DNA of 64,000 nt, taken from assembly GCA_002162075.1 (NCBI GenBank), contig CP021423.1, positions 1,364,001-1,428,000 on the forward strand, written 5' to 3'. A program made the translations under genes and the position numbers. Positions 13,246 to 62,228 of the stretch are shown in pieces. Below the pieces are notes generated by a model, which searched no databases, had not been told where the DNA came from, and was given only the letters and a program-made list of their open reading frames with translations. The DNA is from Armatimonadetes bacterium Uphvl-Ar1 (GTDB lineage Bacteria; Armatimonadota; Fimbriimonadia; Fimbriimonadales; Fimbriimonadaceae). How positions within the stretch are numbered: position 1 is the first letter of the stretch; each line of letters begins with the position of its first letter.

Positions 13246-13605
13246 TACTAACCCCATTATGGCTCACATAGCCTCTACAAGAATCCCATATCCCCCTCTC
13301 GACTCATCATTGCTCAGGCTCCTAAATCGTCAACCCATAGTAAAGCCAGCCCCTGACTTGAACCGGGGCGGGGACCCAGCCCTGAAGAGAAACAAGCGCA
13401 CACTCTGTGCTTCACCCCCCTTCCCAGATCAAGCTTCTCGAATAGAATTTGCTGCCTGCCTCATGCTTCGTCATCCCCGCGTAGGCGGGGGCCCAGTCCT
13501 CAAAAAAACAAGCGCACGTTCCGTGCTTCAATCCCTCTTCCAAAATCAAACTTCCCGAACAAAACTCGCCGGCAGTCTATCCAATGGCACCCACATAGAG
13601 CATTT

Positions 13606-26630: not shown

Positions 26631-27452
26631 ATGCAACGCGCATTCACGCTCATCGAGCTTCTGGTCGTCATTGCCATCATCGCAATCCTCGCCGCAATCC
26701 TGTTCCCTGTCTTCGCACAAGCAAAAAATGCCGCAAAAAAAACTGCCTCCCTGAGTAACGTCAAGCAAATCGGCACTGCCAGCCAAATCTATCTCGGCGA
26801 TTACGACGACACTACCCCGCCTGTCTTCTGGTTCGACCCCAACGCACTCGACCTTCCTACAACTCAGGGCTTCCACTACTTCCCCATCCTCCTCCAGCCA
26901 TATTCCAAAAACAAACAACTCTTCCTGTGCCCCAACGACCGAGCAACCGATCCCGTACTGACCGATCCCATCGGCAAAGGCCGATTCGACCCCGATAGCA
27001 TTTTCCGGGACTACTTCTATGGCGCAAATCCCAGCTACGGATACAACTACCGCTACCTCAACAACTTCCTCGGAACCAGAATCATCGGCGGAATGCCAAC
27101 TCGCTTGTTCAGCGGCGTCAGCGCAACCTCCATCGAGAACGTCTCCCAAACAATCATGTTCGCTGAGGCAACAATGAAAAACCTTCGTGGCGTTCAGTCC
27201 CCAGTCGGTTACTCCCTTATCGAGCCGCCGTTTCCAATCGCCGATCCTGTTCGAGCCGTGTCTTACCCTGGCTGGACGGGAACATTCCCTGACGCTCGCT
27301 CCCAGGGCCAACTCTGGGGCCGGTTTGACCAAAAATCCGTCATTGTCACTTGGCTTGATTCTCACGCCAAGTTCACTCCCATTGCCTCCCTCCGCGCTGA
27401 TGGATCAACCGAAGATCAAGTCAACCGGTTCTGGAACGGCAAAAACCCCTAA
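26631..27452 (+). CDS. Type II secretion/prepilin-like protein
   Basis: The 273-residue product begins [15 protein letters not shown], with the prepilin peptidase site, Glu5 and hydrophobic helix followed by LFPVFAQAK. The C-terminal TWLDSHAKF segment is the DG-like motif with Ser for Gly. It is a solitary copy on the plus strand, with no small lipoprotein gene behind it. Aromatic and Pro-rich stretches in the body ([15 protein letters not shown]) differ from the other four copies, so it probably displays a different surface. Confidence 0.88.
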
Positions 27453-54970: not shown

Positions 54971-56500
54971 GTGTGGATAGCAACCAAAGAGCAGAGTCAA
55001 GAAATTGATCGCCGAGCAACGGAAGAGTTCGGCGTTCCTGCCATGGTGCTCATGGAACGGGCGGGCTTAGCCGTTTTCGAAGCTACGGATCAACTCCTCA
55101 AAGGCCAGGGTCGTGTCATGGTCTTCTGCGGACATGGCAATAATGGCGGAGATGGGTTTGTCGCCGCGCGCATTCTCCTCGAACATGGATACCACGTTGA
55201 TTGCCTCGTCGCCGCTGAAGAATCTCACCTGCGAGAGGAATGTCGCCTCCAAATGCTCCAAGCCCAAGCTCAAGGCGTCCACCCGATATACTCATCCGAT
55301 CCTCGTTTTGAACGCAAGCTTGAATGTCTCGGGCACCATGACTTAATCATTGATGCTCTTCTTGGGCTCGGTGCCGAAGGACAACTGCACGGACCCGTCA
55401 AGGATTCCATCGAAGCGATCAACCGATCCGGTGTCCCCGTCGTCAGTGTCGACGTTCCATCCGGACTTGATTGCAACTCAGGCCAGGACCTCGGTGCGAG
55501 CGTCTGGGCCCTCCGAACTGTCACTTTTGGCCTTCCCAAACCCTTCCTCTTCCAAGGCGTCGGGCTCGAACATTCTGGTTACTGGAGTGTCGCAAAAATC
55601 GGATTCCCACCCGAACTCCTCGCGACGCCATGCGATGCAAAACTCATAGAAAGAGAATGGGTTGCCGGACTCTTACCCGAACGGTTCCGCGACTCTCACA
55701 AAGGCACCAACGGCCGTCTCCTTATTGTCGCCGGTAGTAACCAAATGCGGGGAGCCGCGATTCTTGCCGCCAAAGCCGCCCTCCGATCAGGAATCGGCTT
55801 GATCACCGTTGCCGGAATTGAGTCAGTCTGCCAAGCCGTCATGGCCCACATCCCCGAAGCAACTCTCCTCCCCCTTCCCGAGAGCGAGGGAGTCATAGCC
55901 CCCGAAGCCGCCGACATCATCCTCCACCATCAAGCCCAGTTCAGCGCATCGCTATTCGGCCCCGGATTGGCCCACGAACCGCCAGTTAAGGATTTCCTCA
56001 CTCGTCTCTGGAATCGCTGGGAAGTCCCCAGTGTGATCGACGCCGATGCTCTCAATGCAGTCAGTGCAGGAATAATACTTCCTGCCGCTCCCAGTGTTCT
56101 TACACCCCATCCGGGTGAAATGGCCCGCCTTCTTGGAAAATCGGTTGAAGAAATTCAAGCCGATCGCTTCTCCTCCGCTCTCGCCGCGACCCAAAAATTT
56201 GGCAAAACTGTCCTCCTCAAGGGCCCCTACAGCATCGTCGCTAGTGGCGGTGATCCCATGATGGTCAACCAAACCGGAAACTCAGGAATGGCCTCCGCCG
56301 GTATGGGAGATGTCCTCAGCGGAGTCATCGCAACCCTCCTTGCCCAAGAACTTCACCCCGACGAAGCCGCCGCGGCCGGAATGTACTGGCACGGACTCTC
56401 CGGAGACCTCTGCGCCCAAGAAATTGGCCACATCGGATTCACCGCTCGCGATGTCGCTATTCATTTGCCCGCCGCACGGGCTAAACTCATCGAATCGTGA
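54971..56500 (+). CDS. nnr: Bifunctional NAD(P)H-hydrate epimerase/dehydratase
   Basis: The 509 residues combine the YjeF N-domain epimerase (VFCGHGNNGGDGFVAARIL, VVSVDVPSGLDCNSGQ) with the ADP- or ATP-dependent dehydratase (LLIVAGSNQMRGAAILAAKA, DADALNAVS, VLTPHPGEMARLLG, KTVLLKGPYSIV, NQTGNSGMASAGMGDVLSGV). The enzyme repairs damaged NADHX and NADPHX. The start is GTG at 54971. The final GTGA overlaps the start of the next gene, an FHA protein, so they are coupled although functionally unrelated. Confidence 0.95.
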   Translation: MWIATKEQSQEIDRRATEEFGVPAMVLMERAGLAVFEATDQLLKGQGRVMVFCGHGNNGGDGFVAARILLEHGYHVDCLVAAEESHLREECRLQMLQAQAQGVHPIYSSDPRFERKLECLGHHDLIIDALLGLGAEGQLHGPVKDSIEAINRSGVPVVSVDVPSGLDCNSGQDLGASVWALRTVTFGLPKPFLFQGVGLEHSGYWSVAKIGFPPELLATPCDAKLIEREWVAGLLPERFRDSHKGTNGRLLIVAGSNQMRGAAILAAKAALRSGIGLITVAGIESVCQAVMAHIPEATLLPLPESEGVIAPEAADIILHHQAQFSASLFGPGLAHEPPVKDFLTRLWNRWEVPSVIDADALNAVSAGIILPAAPSVLTPHPGEMARLLGKSVEEIQADRFSSALAATQKFGKTVLLKGPYSIVASGGDPMMVNQTGNSGMASAGMGDVLSGVIATLLAQELHPDEAAAAGMYWHGLSGDLCAQEIGHIGFTARDVAIHLPAARAKLIES

Positions 56501-57690
56501 TTCGAGCGGCCCTCCTCTTCCTCCTCTTTCTCATCGCAAACTTGTCATTCGCCCAATCGGTTCGGACGTTCACTATCACTCCGCCGGGCGAAGGGGGATT
56601 TAGCTATGTCATCCAAAAGCCTGATGAAACCAAAGAACCCCTTGCTATCGAAGGTAAATCCGTAGAAGCCGCCGCTCCAGAAGACCCCAACGGCTACCGC
56701 GTCTTTGTCATCGACACTTCCATCAATCGCGCCGCTTCAGCTGACCTCGTCCAAGTCCTCAAAACCAAAAAATTCACCCCCAAATCCGACGAATTCACCC
56801 TCGTCGCCGAAACAATTTTCCAATTCAACCCAAAGTCGGGGGTAATACCCGCCGCCAATCTCAAAGTCACCTCTGGAAAAGAAGTCATAACAAAACTAAT
56901 CACCGCCCAAAACAACAATCTGGTCTCCATTCGGTTCCTTCCAAACTCCGTGATCTCATATGAAATCACCTATGAAGTCGGCTCAAATCAAAGCCGCCTT
57001 TCCGGAATGGGCGACGCGACAAAAACCGCCGGCGCGTTCACGATTGACATTCCCATTGATGCAGAATTCACTGCAACTGAAGAATCAAGAGTCACCAACG
57101 AAACCCCTACCGCGCCAAAACAGAGTGACGCCAAAAACCCCCTCGTTTCCCTCCTCCAGAACCTCATCGGTCTCGCCCTTGTCGGTGGACTTGCCTATGC
57201 TGGTTATTGGTACTACAAGAACAACCAGAAAGTCGTCGAGAAACTCGCGGATCAAGCCGGGCTCAAACCCCAAGACCCCGCTGATCCGACCGGTGCCCTC
57301 CCCGCCGAACCACCAAAGAAAGACCTCCAAAAGATCGTTTTACAAGATAGTTCCCTCCCCAAGCTTGGGGAGGGCCAGGGAGGGGTTGTCACTCCGACGA
57401 TTGCCGCTACCAAAAACCCCCGCCTCGTCACCCCCGAAGGCAACATCCACCTGATAACCGAAGGCTCCCAAAACGTCGGCCGCGAAGCCGCCGACCTCAC
57501 CCTCGCCGGAGAATCGAGCGTCAGCCGGTCCCACGCCCAAATCACCCGCGAGGCTAACCAAATCACTGTCTCAGATTCCGGCTCGACCAACGGAACCTAC
57601 ATCAACGGAACCAAGATCACCTCTCCCACCGTCCTCAATCCTGGAGATACCGTTCAATTCGGAACCGTTTCGTTCCGATACGAAGAATAA
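56497..57690 (+). CDS. Membrane protein with cytoplasmic FHA domain (1)
   Basis: The 397 residues, starting with GTG overlapping the nnr stop, begin with a signal peptide (AALLFLLFLIANLSFAQ). An extracytoplasmic part of about 195 residues follows, then a membrane helix near 222-240 (LIGLALVGGLAYAGYWYY), a charged linker, and an FHA domain at about 305-397: VGREAADLTLAGESSVSRSH, DSGSTNGTYINGTKI, with the Arg, Ser and Asn of phosphothreonine binding. In the linker lies a type B palindromic repeat read in frame as SSLPKLGEGQGGVV. The adjacent genes (second FHA protein, VWA protein) suggest a phosphothreonine signalling unit; a kinase is not in the window. Confidence 0.88.
   Translation: MIRAALLFLLFLIANLSFAQSVRTFTITPPGEGGFSYVIQKPDETKEPLAIEGKSVEAAAPEDPNGYRVFVIDTSINRAASADLVQVLKTKKFTPKSDEFTLVAETIFQFNPKSGVIPAANLKVTSGKEVITKLITAQNNNLVSIRFLPNSVISYEITYEVGSNQSRLSGMGDATKTAGAFTIDIPIDAEFTATEESRVTNETPTAPKQSDAKNPLVSLLQNLIGLALVGGLAYAGYWYYKNNQKVVEKLADQAGLKPQDPADPTGALPAEPPKKDLQKIVLQDSSLPKLGEGQGGVVTPTIAATKNPRLVTPEGNIHLITEGSQNVGREAADLTLAGESSVSRSHAQITREANQITVSDSGSTNGTYINGTKITSPTVLNPGDTVQFGTVSFRYEE
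57353..57390 (+). repeat. Palindromic repeat, type B (in frame in FHA gene 1)
   Basis: CCCTCCCCAAGCTTGGGGAG forms a perfect hairpin; GGCCAGGGAGGGGTTGTC follows. It matches the tail layout of the copies at 13606 and 13753. Confidence 0.8.
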
Positions 57691-57696
57691 CAAATC

Positions 57697-59163
57697 ATGG
57701 GAAAAATGCTCGGACGCGCCATTTTGTGCGCCATCGCCGGACTCATCGGCTGGCTCATCACCGAGCCCATGCTCCCCAAAGAATTCGCAAGCCCCAACTG
57801 GGCCGCCGCCGAATTCCGCATGGTCATCATCGCCATGCTTTTCACCGGACTTGCCGCCGGGTTCCACCAAGGCTACATGAAAGGCGGTCGCCGCAATATC
57901 CTCCTCGGCCTCGCCCTTGGAGCCGTCTTCGGCACCATCGGCGGCGTTCTTGGCTACCAAATCGGCGGAACCCTCTCCAATGCCCTCTTCGGTTCCGGAT
58001 GGGCTCTCCGCCCCTTCCCCATTATCCCCCGCACCCTCACCTTCGCCATGATCGGAATGTTTCTCGGGGCCGGGGTTGGCGTAACCCAGTTCCGAACCCG
58101 AATCATCATCGCCGGAGCATTCGGTGGACTTCTTGGCGGTGGCATCGCTGGCCTCTTCTTCGATCCCCTCGGCTCAACTGTCGGTCAAATCATTTCCGCC
58201 GGCGGAGAGTCCGGATTCGCTGGACGGGCTCTCATGTGGCCCCTCATGGGCTTCACTGTAGGGCTCTTCACCGCCTGGCTCGAACAAGCCACCCGCCAAG
58301 CGTGGGTGCGCCTCATCGTTGGACGCAACGAAGGCAAGGAGTGGCCCATCGACGCTGCCCAAACCCATCTCGGAAGAGACGAACGCGCCCACGTCCCCCT
58401 CTTCGGCGACCCCAACGTTGCCCCGCTCCACGCCACCATTACCCGCCAAGGCCCCCAATACATTCTTCACGACGCCGGATCCCCCATTGGCACCGGTTAC
58501 CAAGGCGTTCGCATGTCCGCCCCCGTGGCGCTCCAACCCGGCGATTTTTTCCAAATCGGCCCCCACCAACTCCAATTCCTCGTCAAAGGCTCCGCCGCCC
58601 GCCGCATCCAAGAAGGCCGGAATCACCCCCTCTCCGTGCCAATGGAGAGGGGGCCGGGGGGTGAGGTATTGCCCGGTGGCACTAGTGTAACCAGTGTCCA
58701 ACAAAACCACCAACTGCAACCCTTAGGTGGGCATCCTGGACTTGACCCAAGAACGCAAATGGGTGGCACTGGGTTAACCAGTCAAACGAATTGCCCTCCC
58801 CAATCTTGGGGAGGGCAGGGCGGGGTTGATCAAACAGCCTCAGTTGCCAAAACCTACACCCTCGTTGCCCTCGACGGCCCCCTCACCGGACAACGGTTCC
58901 CCATCACCGCCCCGACTGAAGCCGGACGAGAATCCCCTGGCATCAGCCTCGGCTTCGATCCCCAATCCTCGCGCCGCCACGCCCTCATCTCCCCCACCCC
59001 GAACGGCCTCCACATCAAAGACCTCGGAAGCACCAACGGCACCTACCTCAACGGTCAACGCATCCCCGAAGCCGCTGCCCCCACCGGAAGCACCATCAAA
59101 ATCGGCTCAACAACATTCAAAGTTGAATCTCAGAAACAATTAATGGAAAAAGAAATCACTTAG
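57697..59163 (+). CDS. Polytopic membrane protein with two FHA domains (2)
   Basis: The 488 residues start with six hydrophobic segments (residues about 5-205; Gly-rich, such as NILLGLALGAVFGTIGGVLG). A degenerate FHA domain follows at about 215-310 (THLGRDERAHVPLFGDPNVA, LHATITRQGPQYILHD) that lacks the GSTNGT turn. A 95-residue linker then carries four or five palindromic repeat units in frame, and a canonical FHA domain closes the protein at about 385-480 (SRRHALISPTPNGLHIKDLG, STNGTYLNGQRI). So both FHA proteins of the locus have repeats in the linker in front of their last FHA domain. It is 6 bases behind FHA gene 1, and convergent with the lipoprotein gene, overlapping its end by 8 bases. 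Confidence 0.88.
   Translation: MGKMLGRAILCAIAGLIGWLITEPMLPKEFASPNWAAAEFRMVIIAMLFTGLAAGFHQGYMKGGRRNILLGLALGAVFGTIGGVLGYQIGGTLSNALFGSGWALRPFPIIPRTLTFAMIGMFLGAGVGVTQFRTRIIIAGAFGGLLGGGIAGLFFDPLGSTVGQIISAGGESGFAGRALMWPLMGFTVGLFTAWLEQATRQAWVRLIVGRNEGKEWPIDAAQTHLGRDERAHVPLFGDPNVAPLHATITRQGPQYILHDAGSPIGTGYQGVRMSAPVALQPGDFFQIGPHQLQFLVKGSAARRIQEGRNHPLSVPMERGPGGEVLPGGTSVTSVQQNHQLQPLGGHPGLDPRTQMGGTGLTSQTNCPPQSWGGQGGVDQTASVAKTYTLVALDGPLTGQRFPITAPTEAGRESPGISLGFDPQSSRRHALISPTPNGLHIKDLGSTNGTYLNGQRIPEAAAPTGSTIKIGSTTFKVESQKQLMEKEIT
58624..58831 (+). repeat. Cluster of palindromic repeats in frame in the FHA gene 2 linker
   Basis: Within 208 bases lie a type A element (58624-58667, read as HPLSVPMERGPGGEV), a GGTGGCAC..TAACC..GT element (58674-58700, PGGTSVTSVQ), a CATCCTGGACTTGACCCAAG element (58727-58754, GGHPGLDPRTQ), a second GGTGGCAC element (58761-58782, GGTGLTSQ) and a type B element (58794-58831, PPQSWGGQGGVD). 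None breaks the frame. Confidence 0.8.
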
Positions 59164-60027: not shown

Positions 60028-61428
60028 ATGAACCAAAACGACCCCAACCGCACCATCATTTCCCCGCCGCTCGATCCCAATCGAACCATGATCGGCACCC
60101 CCAACATCAACCAAACCATGGCGATGACTTCCCCTCCAACCGCCGGAGACCCCAACCGCACCGTCGCCTTCTCTCCCAGCCAACCCCTCAGCTTCGTCCT
60201 CACCCCCACCCGAACCGCCACCATGGCGAATGGCCCCGCCCGCGAACAATTCCTCCTCGAAATCACCGCCCCCACCGATGGCGGCCTCCCCGGAATGTCC
60301 ACCGCCGGTGAACGAGCTCCCCTCAATCTCTGCCTCGTCATAGACCGATCTGGCAGCATGGAGGGTCAACCCATCGAGTACGCCAAGCAAGCCTGCAACC
60401 AGCTCGTAGACCTCCTTAGCCCCACCGACATCCTCTCCATCGTTGTCTTCGATGAAATCGTCGAAGTCCTCATGGCTCCTCAGCGCGTCACCGACAAACA
60501 AGCCATCAAATCCGGCATCGCCCAAATCCAACCTGGATACACCACCAACCTTTACGACGGAATCACCCTCGGCTCCCAGCAACTCAGCCAAGCCATCGAA
60601 ACCGGGCGCGTCACCCGCATGGTCGTCCTCACCGACGGCGAACCCACCGCCGGAGTCAAAGATTTCCAACCCCTCGTCGCCCACTCCGGGGACATCAAAC
60701 AACGCGGAATCACCACCACCTACCTCGGTTTCGGAGCCGAATACAACGAAGAACTCCTCGCCGCCATGGCGAAAAAAGCCGGAGGAAACTACTATTACAT
60801 CCCCGAGCCCCAAATGATCCCCGAGATCTTCCGCACCGAATTCAGCAAAATGGTCAGCACCACCGGGGTCAACCTCAAGTTCGACCTCAAAGCCGCCCGC
60901 TGGGTCAGCATCAAAGGCGTCACCGGCTACTCCGGCCCCCTCGGCGAACGCGAAATCTCCGTCAACCTTGCCGATATCGAAAAAGGCACAATGATCGAAG
61001 TTGTTGCTGATTTTGAATTCGACAACCACCCCCTGGGCCATTACCGCGTCGCTTCCGGCAAACTCACCTACGAATCAATCGCTGGCGGAACCCAAGTCGT
61101 TGACGTGGATTTCGTCATGGAATTCACCGCCGATGCGTCTCGCTACGGTGCCCAGCCCAACCCCCGTGTCGACGCCGCTTGGCAGATTTCTGCCGCTTCT
61201 CGCGTAGTCGAAAAAACCATCATGGGCCTCAAAACTCAGGCCATCACCAGCCACGCCGCCCTCGCTGACCTCGCCAAAACCCAGGCTCTCCTCACGTCCC
61301 AAGGCAAAACCGCCGACGCCCAAGAAGTCACGATGGCGATACAAGCCATCCAACGCGGCGACATCGGCTCCGCCGAAAAAACCCTCATGGGCACCATGGT
61401 CCACCTCGACCAAGGGAAATCACAATGA
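60028..61428 (+). CDS. VWA-domain protein with N-terminal DPNRT repeats
   Basis: The 466-residue protein starts with a Pro/Thr-rich stretch carrying three DPNRT(I/M/V) copies (residues about 5, 16 and 41) and one NINQTM variant. A VWA domain at about 105-285 has LCLVIDRSGSMEG (MIDAS DxSxS), YTTNLYDGI and VVLTDGEPTAGV, so it binds a metal ion and a partner. The C-terminal part is a beta-sandwich and a helical tail. No signal peptide is seen; it is probably cytoplasmic. The repeated Thr motifs could, when phosphorylated, bind the FHA domains encoded just upstream. The stop overlaps the start of the antitoxin gene (ATGA). Confidence 0.88.
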   Translation: MNQNDPNRTIISPPLDPNRTMIGTPNINQTMAMTSPPTAGDPNRTVAFSPSQPLSFVLTPTRTATMANGPAREQFLLEITAPTDGGLPGMSTAGERAPLNLCLVIDRSGSMEGQPIEYAKQACNQLVDLLSPTDILSIVVFDEIVEVLMAPQRVTDKQAIKSGIAQIQPGYTTNLYDGITLGSQQLSQAIETGRVTRMVVLTDGEPTAGVKDFQPLVAHSGDIKQRGITTTYLGFGAEYNEELLAAMAKKAGGNYYYIPEPQMIPEIFRTEFSKMVSTTGVNLKFDLKAARWVSIKGVTGYSGPLGEREISVNLADIEKGTMIEVVADFEFDNHPLGHYRVASGKLTYESIAGGTQVVDVDFVMEFTADASRYGAQPNPRVDAAWQISAASRVVEKTIMGLKTQAITSHAALADLAKTQALLTSQGKTADAQEVTMAIQAIQRGDIGSAEKTLMGTMVHLDQGKSQ

Positions 61429-62079: not shown

Positions 62080-62228
62080 ATTCAGCGTCGTTGACACAAA
62101 TTTCTTCTTCGAATTAAATGCTGATGTACCAGGCTACGGTGCCCAGCCCCCTCCACAGTGAAATCGGCTCCGCCGAAAAAACCGTCATGGGCTCCACGGT
62201 CCACCTCGACCAAGGCAAGAGCCAGTAA
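62080..62228 (+). pseudogene. 3'-end remnant of a second VWA-type gene
   Basis: Two fragments match the C-terminus of the VWA protein upstream. The first reads VVDTNFFFELNADVPGYGAQ against VVDVDFVMEFTADASRYGAQ; the second reads IGSAEKTVMGSTVHLDQGKS against IGSAEKTLMGTMVHLDQGKS, ending in TAA. About 240 bases between them are lost and the frame differs, so this is a decayed paralogue, not a functional gene. The divergence of the first fragment suggests it came from a separate tandem copy rather than from recent slippage. Confidence 0.8.

Follow-up and report, generated by a model that had tools for sequence, protein, structure and literature searches.

The class II intrastrand triplex motif repeats of Escherichia coli, termed TMECO, follow the pattern CCCTCNCCC N3-6 GGGNGAGGG N3 GGGNGAGGG with 9-nt arms and occur in proteobacterial genomes (Holder et al. 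2015, PMC4666352). They are reported to be always intergenic and show no strand bias in E. coli (13 plus, 10 minus), and their triplex folding was examined by CD/NMR or DMS footprinting (PMC4666352). Intragenic GTAG/CGTC REPs lie in frame in known genes, including tRNA synthetases, with several copies per gene; the authors suggested that loops and linkers are REP-tolerant, and they described two Xanthomonas species that carry different REPs at roughly the same place in recB (Di Nocera et al. 2013, PMC3733652). The palindromic elements of Rickettsia (RPE; Ogata, Claverie) are, as cited in PMC3733652, translated in frame in functional proteins.

The window analyzed here is a stretch of 64,000 nucleotides (G000:C1:1364001-1428000) from the 2.985-Mb, single-contig genome of a member of the Fimbriimonadaceae (G000), with G006 as its sister species. 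At positions 57697-59163 (+) the window carries an intact ORF for a 488-amino-acid, membrane-anchored protein with two FHA-type domains (Pfam PF00498/PF16697). Pfam FHA matched two stretches of this protein (E 1e-25), and Yop-YscD_cpl was assigned to residues 205-295 and FHA to residues 410-470, with a linker between them. The protein was matched in 60 of the 61 relatives searched; named relatives recovered with it include ACE_ARM7 and ACE_ARM8, which are Fimbriimonadaceae MAGs (Armatimonadota), and PNMZ01000004. Its upstream neighbor (56497-57690) is a paralogous gene with a single FHA domain. An earlier note on this DNA had described five short palindromic repeats of four kinds, read in frame between the two FHA domains at 58624-58831. 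Consistently, we found FHA-type domains on both sides and a reading frame that is unbroken through all linker elements; our count, in contrast, came to four elements of three families (A, B, B, and D).

The first of these elements, type A (58624-58668, +), is a putative class II intrastrand-triplex repeat that scored 66.2 bits with covariance model R1. It runs in the order CCCCCTCTCC-GTGCCAAT-GGAGAGGGGG-CCG-GGGGGTGAGG, forms 10/10 triads, and is translated as HPLSVPMERGPGGEV. Two REP-like copies of type B follow, GGTGGCACTAGTGTAACCAGTG at 58675-58700 (+) and GGTGGCACTGGGTTAACCAGTC at 58762-58783 (+); they were recognized by their pairwise identity (86% between 58675-58695 and 58762-58782) and by genome pattern matches, and they belong to a sparse family. 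Type D (58790-58831, +), likewise a putative class II repeat (covariance model R2, 61.6 bits) and backed by an orthologous copy in the sister species, has the order CCCTCCCCAA-TC-TTGGGGAGGG-CA-GGGCGGGGTT, with 9/10 triads by inspection, and is translated as NCPPQSWGGQGGVDQ. A second type D copy (57349-57390, +) occupies the linker of the FHA protein encoded just upstream and is read in frame there as SSLPKLGEGQGGVV. The remaining candidate of the earlier note, "C" (CCACCAACTGCAACCCTTAGGTGG; 58707-58730, +), is an imperfect inverted repeat with 5-bp arms, which we rejected as a fourth repeat family because it proved single-copy in copy searches: no second copy was found in the window, nor at ≤5 mismatches in ~15% of the genome, and a genome search with the carrier gene returned no match to the "C" portion. 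"C" is a case of a G/C-rich, low-complexity linker merely resembling repeats by chance, and the B copies are weak too, with 14 matches in the sampled loci versus 5 for the control and 12 genome matches versus 3 for a reversed-pattern control. As an account of the linker, chance has a negligible probability, and it is refuted for A and D by their scores of 66 and 62 bits and genome E-values of ~1e-15.

To count families A and D genome-wide, we used covariance models derived from aligned copies and a cut-off of ≥30 bits, which yielded 46 A and 41 D copies in G000 (87 in total). Both repeats are G/C-rich and short (A, ~45 nt; D, ~42 nt), and both consist of a C-rich arm, a loop, a complementary G-rich arm, a short loop, and a further G-rich arm mirroring the preceding one. 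A and D are real families but not, as in the earlier note, simple palindromes, their order being that of a hairpin plus a mirror-repeat third strand. Among copies with a duplex of ≥8 bp, ≥80% matching triads were present in 39/40 A and 29/36 D copies, as opposed to 35% and 22%, respectively, for shuffled tails, and the mean proportion of matching triads was 97% for A and 92% for D versus 75% and 73% for shuffled tails. Both families show the general features of class II, i.e., a Y arm, a complementary R arm, and an antiparallel purine third strand, with G.GC and A/T.AT triads. Their geometry thus fits a class II (purine-motif) intrastrand triplex, and the sequence is such that the G-rich strand could fold in this way.

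As in TMECO, the arms of A and D are arranged as arm-loop-arm-loop-mirror arm with a second loop of 2 to 3 nt that is often CCG or TTA, the copies are near-identical, dispersed, and mostly intergenic, and the loci are rearranged between relatives. Unlike TMECO, type A reads CCCCCTCTCC N8 GGAGAGGGGG N2-3 GGGGGTGAGG, with 10-nt arms and an 8-nt first loop that depart from the TMECO pattern; moreover, A and D copies also occur in frame inside genes and are all replichore-oriented (46/46 and 41/41, respectively). A type A model search of G041, from another family of the order, gave 126 matches, most at ~40 bits, on both strands and with no evident polarity; this repeat is related to type A yet distinct. 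Tandem arrangements were also seen, namely, five D elements with a 118-bp period at G000:C1:313982-314506 and a 148-bp tandem pair at window positions 13602 and 13750 that is not found in G006.

Comparison with relatives revealed how the linker acquired its content. In an alignment of 19 orthologues, in which the FHA domains align, A- or D-type linker elements were present only in G000 and G006; in the other orthologues, among them those at 53-68% protein identity, the linker is short and rich in Gln/Pro. This agrees with the prediction of the earlier note that relatives would lack the elements or carry different ones. G006, which shares 85-93% DNA identity with the window region, carries an orthologous copy of linker D (C4:219989-220030), and the D of the upstream FHA gene (57349-57390) is also present there. 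At the corresponding linker positions, G006 has neither A nor either of the two B copies, and D is followed by a different B-like segment (GGTGTAACCAGTGGTACCAGTG). As judged from these alignments, D evidently entered the linker before the split of G000 and G006. Since D is common to both sisters, A and B are present at these positions in G000 but not in G006, and the relatives have plain linkers, the linker appears to have been filled stepwise.

Our preferred reading, to which we assign a probability of about 0.68, is that a permissive, disordered linker was filled stepwise by triplex repeats (A and D) and by the RAYT-type, REP-like B, with orientation set at the replication fork. More specifically, the disordered FHA linker would tolerate insertions, allowing two kinds of repeat to accumulate in steps, and the G-rich strand of A and D would fold into a hairpin with an antiparallel purine third strand. 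Insertions elsewhere in genes would be removed by selection, linkers and loops alone tolerating them, and a site once occupied would tend to gain or swap elements, as may have happened in PheT, in loops 2 and 3 of ArgS, and at one intergenic site. Orientation would arise at the fork, where copies with the triplex-forming strand on the single-stranded lagging-strand template would most likely be unstable or never made. The piling up of several families in one disordered linker is borne out by the presence of A, B, and D. The proposed resemblance to the Rickettsia elements holds only as an analogy, in that repeats are translated within proteins. A and D are 42-45 nt long, comprise a hairpin plus a third strand, are dispersed mostly between genes, and belong to another phylum; by architecture, the closest systems are intrastrand-triplex repeats for A and D and RAYT-associated REPs for B.

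The FHA linker is one among several permissive loops. Type A copies lie in frame in pheT, argS, a gene for a GNAT-like protein, and the FHA gene, and type D copies in both FHA genes, argS, and genes for a CrtI-family protein, a phosphodiesterase-like protein, and an APH-like kinase. In the pheT loop between HPLD and RIRVRQPHSPEM, G000 carries A and G006 carries D; G007 and G004 have other sequence there, and the loop is empty in G003, G005, G002, G001, G022, and G011. Likewise, loop 2 of argS holds D in G000, in G006 (followed directly by A), and in G007, and a D-like peptide in G004, G003, and G005; insertions in loops 1 and 3 also differ by species, and up to three loops are occupied. The idea of a landing platform thus extends beyond the FHA linker, as the same PheT and ArgS loops hold different families in sister species. 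These in-frame copies provide a clear case of essential enzymes whose loops have repeatedly gained peptide from mobile noncoding repeats, and the repeat at a given codon position can be seen to differ between sister species. Short hairpin repeats in frame in linkers and loops, and different repeats at one site between species, are features shared with the GTAG/CGTC REPs. In contrast to those REPs, A and D carry no GTAG/CGTC tag in the alignments and have a triplex third strand instead, up to three families occupy one linker, and replication polarity is complete. The argS gene of G000 (C1:2303765-2306320) appears to be split over three reading frames, and the frame changes fall within two groups of clustered D- and B-like elements that contain C7/C8/G8 runs; the cause may be a faulty assembly or genuine frameshifts in this essential gene.

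Exchange was also observed between genes. At site 1870825, the A of G000 corresponds to a D in G006, with altered flanks, and site 1873903 holds A in both. At the former, turnover resembles exchange more than clean insertion, at a resolution short of the breakpoints. Comparing G000 with G006 at three intergenic sites, in pheT, and in the FHA linker, we could read no target-site duplication, which together with terminal inverted repeats would characterize a MITE, and no clean empty site: one intergenic site is shared, one has D in G006 in place of A, and at the others the flanks had diverged. An alternative explanation is replication error, whereby triplex-stalled forks, through template switching or ectopic copying, seed copies and swap A for D. 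The A/D exchange at one pheT loop and one intergenic site, where the flanks changed too, would be in line with this, as would the tandem D arrays at 313982-314506 and at window 13602/13750 and the published instability of TMECO loci (PMC4666352). Microhomology breakpoints, however, were not demonstrated, and independent insertion into a permissive site gives the same pattern; we regard replication error as somewhat unlikely.

We then considered whether the elements are selected to be readable, as the earlier note had asked. Gene calls came from a hexamer model built here rather than from curated annotation, and the sequence contexts covered ~15% of the genome, centered on element copies. Only ~12 of the 87 copies lie in genes, most being intergenic, while 85% of the sampled sequence is coding; genes are thus strongly avoided, and the tabulation of in-gene copies revealed depletion and no enrichment. 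Type D is free of stops in nearly all six frames (24, 22, and 25 of 26 copies in the forward frames and 26, 24, and 25 in the reverse frames), both inside and outside genes, and D copies within genes are found in each of the three forward frames. In type A, the frames that are mainly free of stops are forward frame 0 (24/30 copies) and two reverse frames. The use of forward frame 0 by 4/4 in-gene A copies could therefore reflect no more than the avoidance of stops, although no reverse readings occur. Forward-sense reading was seen in 11/12 in-gene copies, spread over only nine genes, and this bias is suggestive only. Because D is nearly stop-free everywhere and A has one usually open forward frame, the frame can be kept without special selection for a readable frame, which we consider unnecessary.

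It is also very improbable that the linker repeats are selected for the Gly/Pro-rich peptide that they encode, as a form of adaptive protein tinkering. Although in-frame retention in both FHA genes and preservation of D in both sister species would be expected under such selection, unrelated proteins contain the same peptide types, the three frames in which D is read give different peptides, relatives function without the elements, and the majority of copies are intergenic.

Regarding orientation, GC skew in G000 is ~+0.16 to +0.42 on one arm and -0.16 to -0.38 on the other, and its sign changes twice, within 1.01-1.33 Mb and within 2.59-2.73 Mb. When reverse matches caused by the palindrome overlapping itself were excluded along with lower-scoring matches, all copies of ≥30 bits (A, 46/46; D, 41/41) lay on the negative-skew strand; a few of the A/D matches below 30 bits sit on the opposite strand. 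Copies sampled in G006 show the same polarity (A, 21/21; D, 11/11; i.e., 32/32). In other relatives, sampled A copies were polarized in 13/14 (G003) and 4/5 (G005) cases, whereas sampled D copies were unpolarized where skew is weak (G003, 12/24; G004, 3/8; G005, 6/9), indicating that a fork filter would not be universal even within the genus. G000 and its sister have a very strong GC skew (magnitude ~0.16-0.42), with AT skew of opposite sign, and skew is weak (mostly <0.1) in G003, G004, and G005 of the same genus.

Two sources of this polarity were rejected. Genes flanking intergenic copies are on the same strand in 78 cases and on the opposite strand in 64, and gene strands in the sampled loci are split ~55:45; polarity is thus not set by transcription and is no by-product of gene orientation. 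GC skew argues against mutational erosion of wrong-way copies, since both G-rich segments lie on the G-poor strand and erosion would first remove the observed orientation. The positive-skew strand is usually the leading strand, and we assigned the leading strand from GC skew, dnaA not having been located. If the positive-skew strand is indeed leading, the triplex-forming strand would in every case serve as the template of the leading strand, never as the exposed one of the lagging strand. This polarity fits a fork filter, in which the other orientation is unstable or not made, and also an orientation-specific insertion reaction. A stronger version, in which the fork of G000 and G006 acts as an absolute orientation filter that admits the G-rich strand on the leading-strand template only, and loops of essential enzymes are standing sites of in-frame exchange, is offered tentatively, as we consider it rather more doubtful than probable. 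We found no report in the literature of replichore-locked triplex-forming repeats. With all 87 copies in one replication orientation, this genome offers a natural and testable record of the effect of triplexes on replication, which touches on the question of whether intrastrand triplexes form in living bacteria and harm replication.

An insertion reaction of this kind could be supplied by a Y1/RAYT-type transposase that spreads all families through single-stranded insertion at the fork, the orientation lock being its footprint. Members of the IS200/IS605 family insert into single-stranded DNA at the replication fork and leave such an orientation footprint. A gene for a RAYT (REP-associated tyrosine transposase) lies at G000:C1:958834-959400 (-), with several B-type REPs on both sides; its product scores 87.5 bits against NCBIfam NF047646 (cut-off 80). 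The B pattern GGTGGCACTGG..CCAGTG resembles the repeats around this gene, a close variant of the B-type repeats likewise flanks the RAYTs of G003 and G005, and B shows the same polarity as A and D once weak or palindrome-ambiguous matches are set aside. Type B thus resembles the GGTGGCAYTGG..CCARTG repeats at the RAYTs of G000, G003, and G005, although the linker B copies are few and degenerate. A and D, in contrast, are of another type: they have no GTAG- or GTGG-type head, and a pattern scan of Y1 loci detected no A/D hairpins beside Y1 genes, the nearest strong A copies to the RAYTs of G003 and G005 being ~1.5 kb away. As no A/D copy flanks any Y1 gene examined, we rejected the RAYT as the mover of A and D. 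Moreover, G006 harbors 26 A copies with no Y1_Tnp gene detected, and D is unpolarized in G003 despite its RAYTs. In E. coli REPs, the GTAG head marks the active strand; if the GTGG head does so here, the active strand of B would lie on the template of the leading strand, whereas the IS608 rule would place it on the other one. Taken together, such a transposase spreading all families seems distinctly unlikely, more so than replication error. An IS200-like Y1 transposase at G000:C1:447815-448150 adjoins a different repeat, CACCCTGACCCCGGAGGGGTC, with at least 2 copies upstream.

Other repeats were observed in the window. Parts of the 3' end of a von Willebrand-like gene (60028-61428) recur downstream at 62087-62218 (59 nt at 92% and 63 nt at 75%), as if by partial duplication. 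An identical 47-nt repeat pair (AGTGCAATTCGCCCGGCTTACCC...) lies at 1345-1391 and 2438-2484, each copy after one of two neighboring related genes, and the gene family preceding these repeats reappears at 26631 and 31964.
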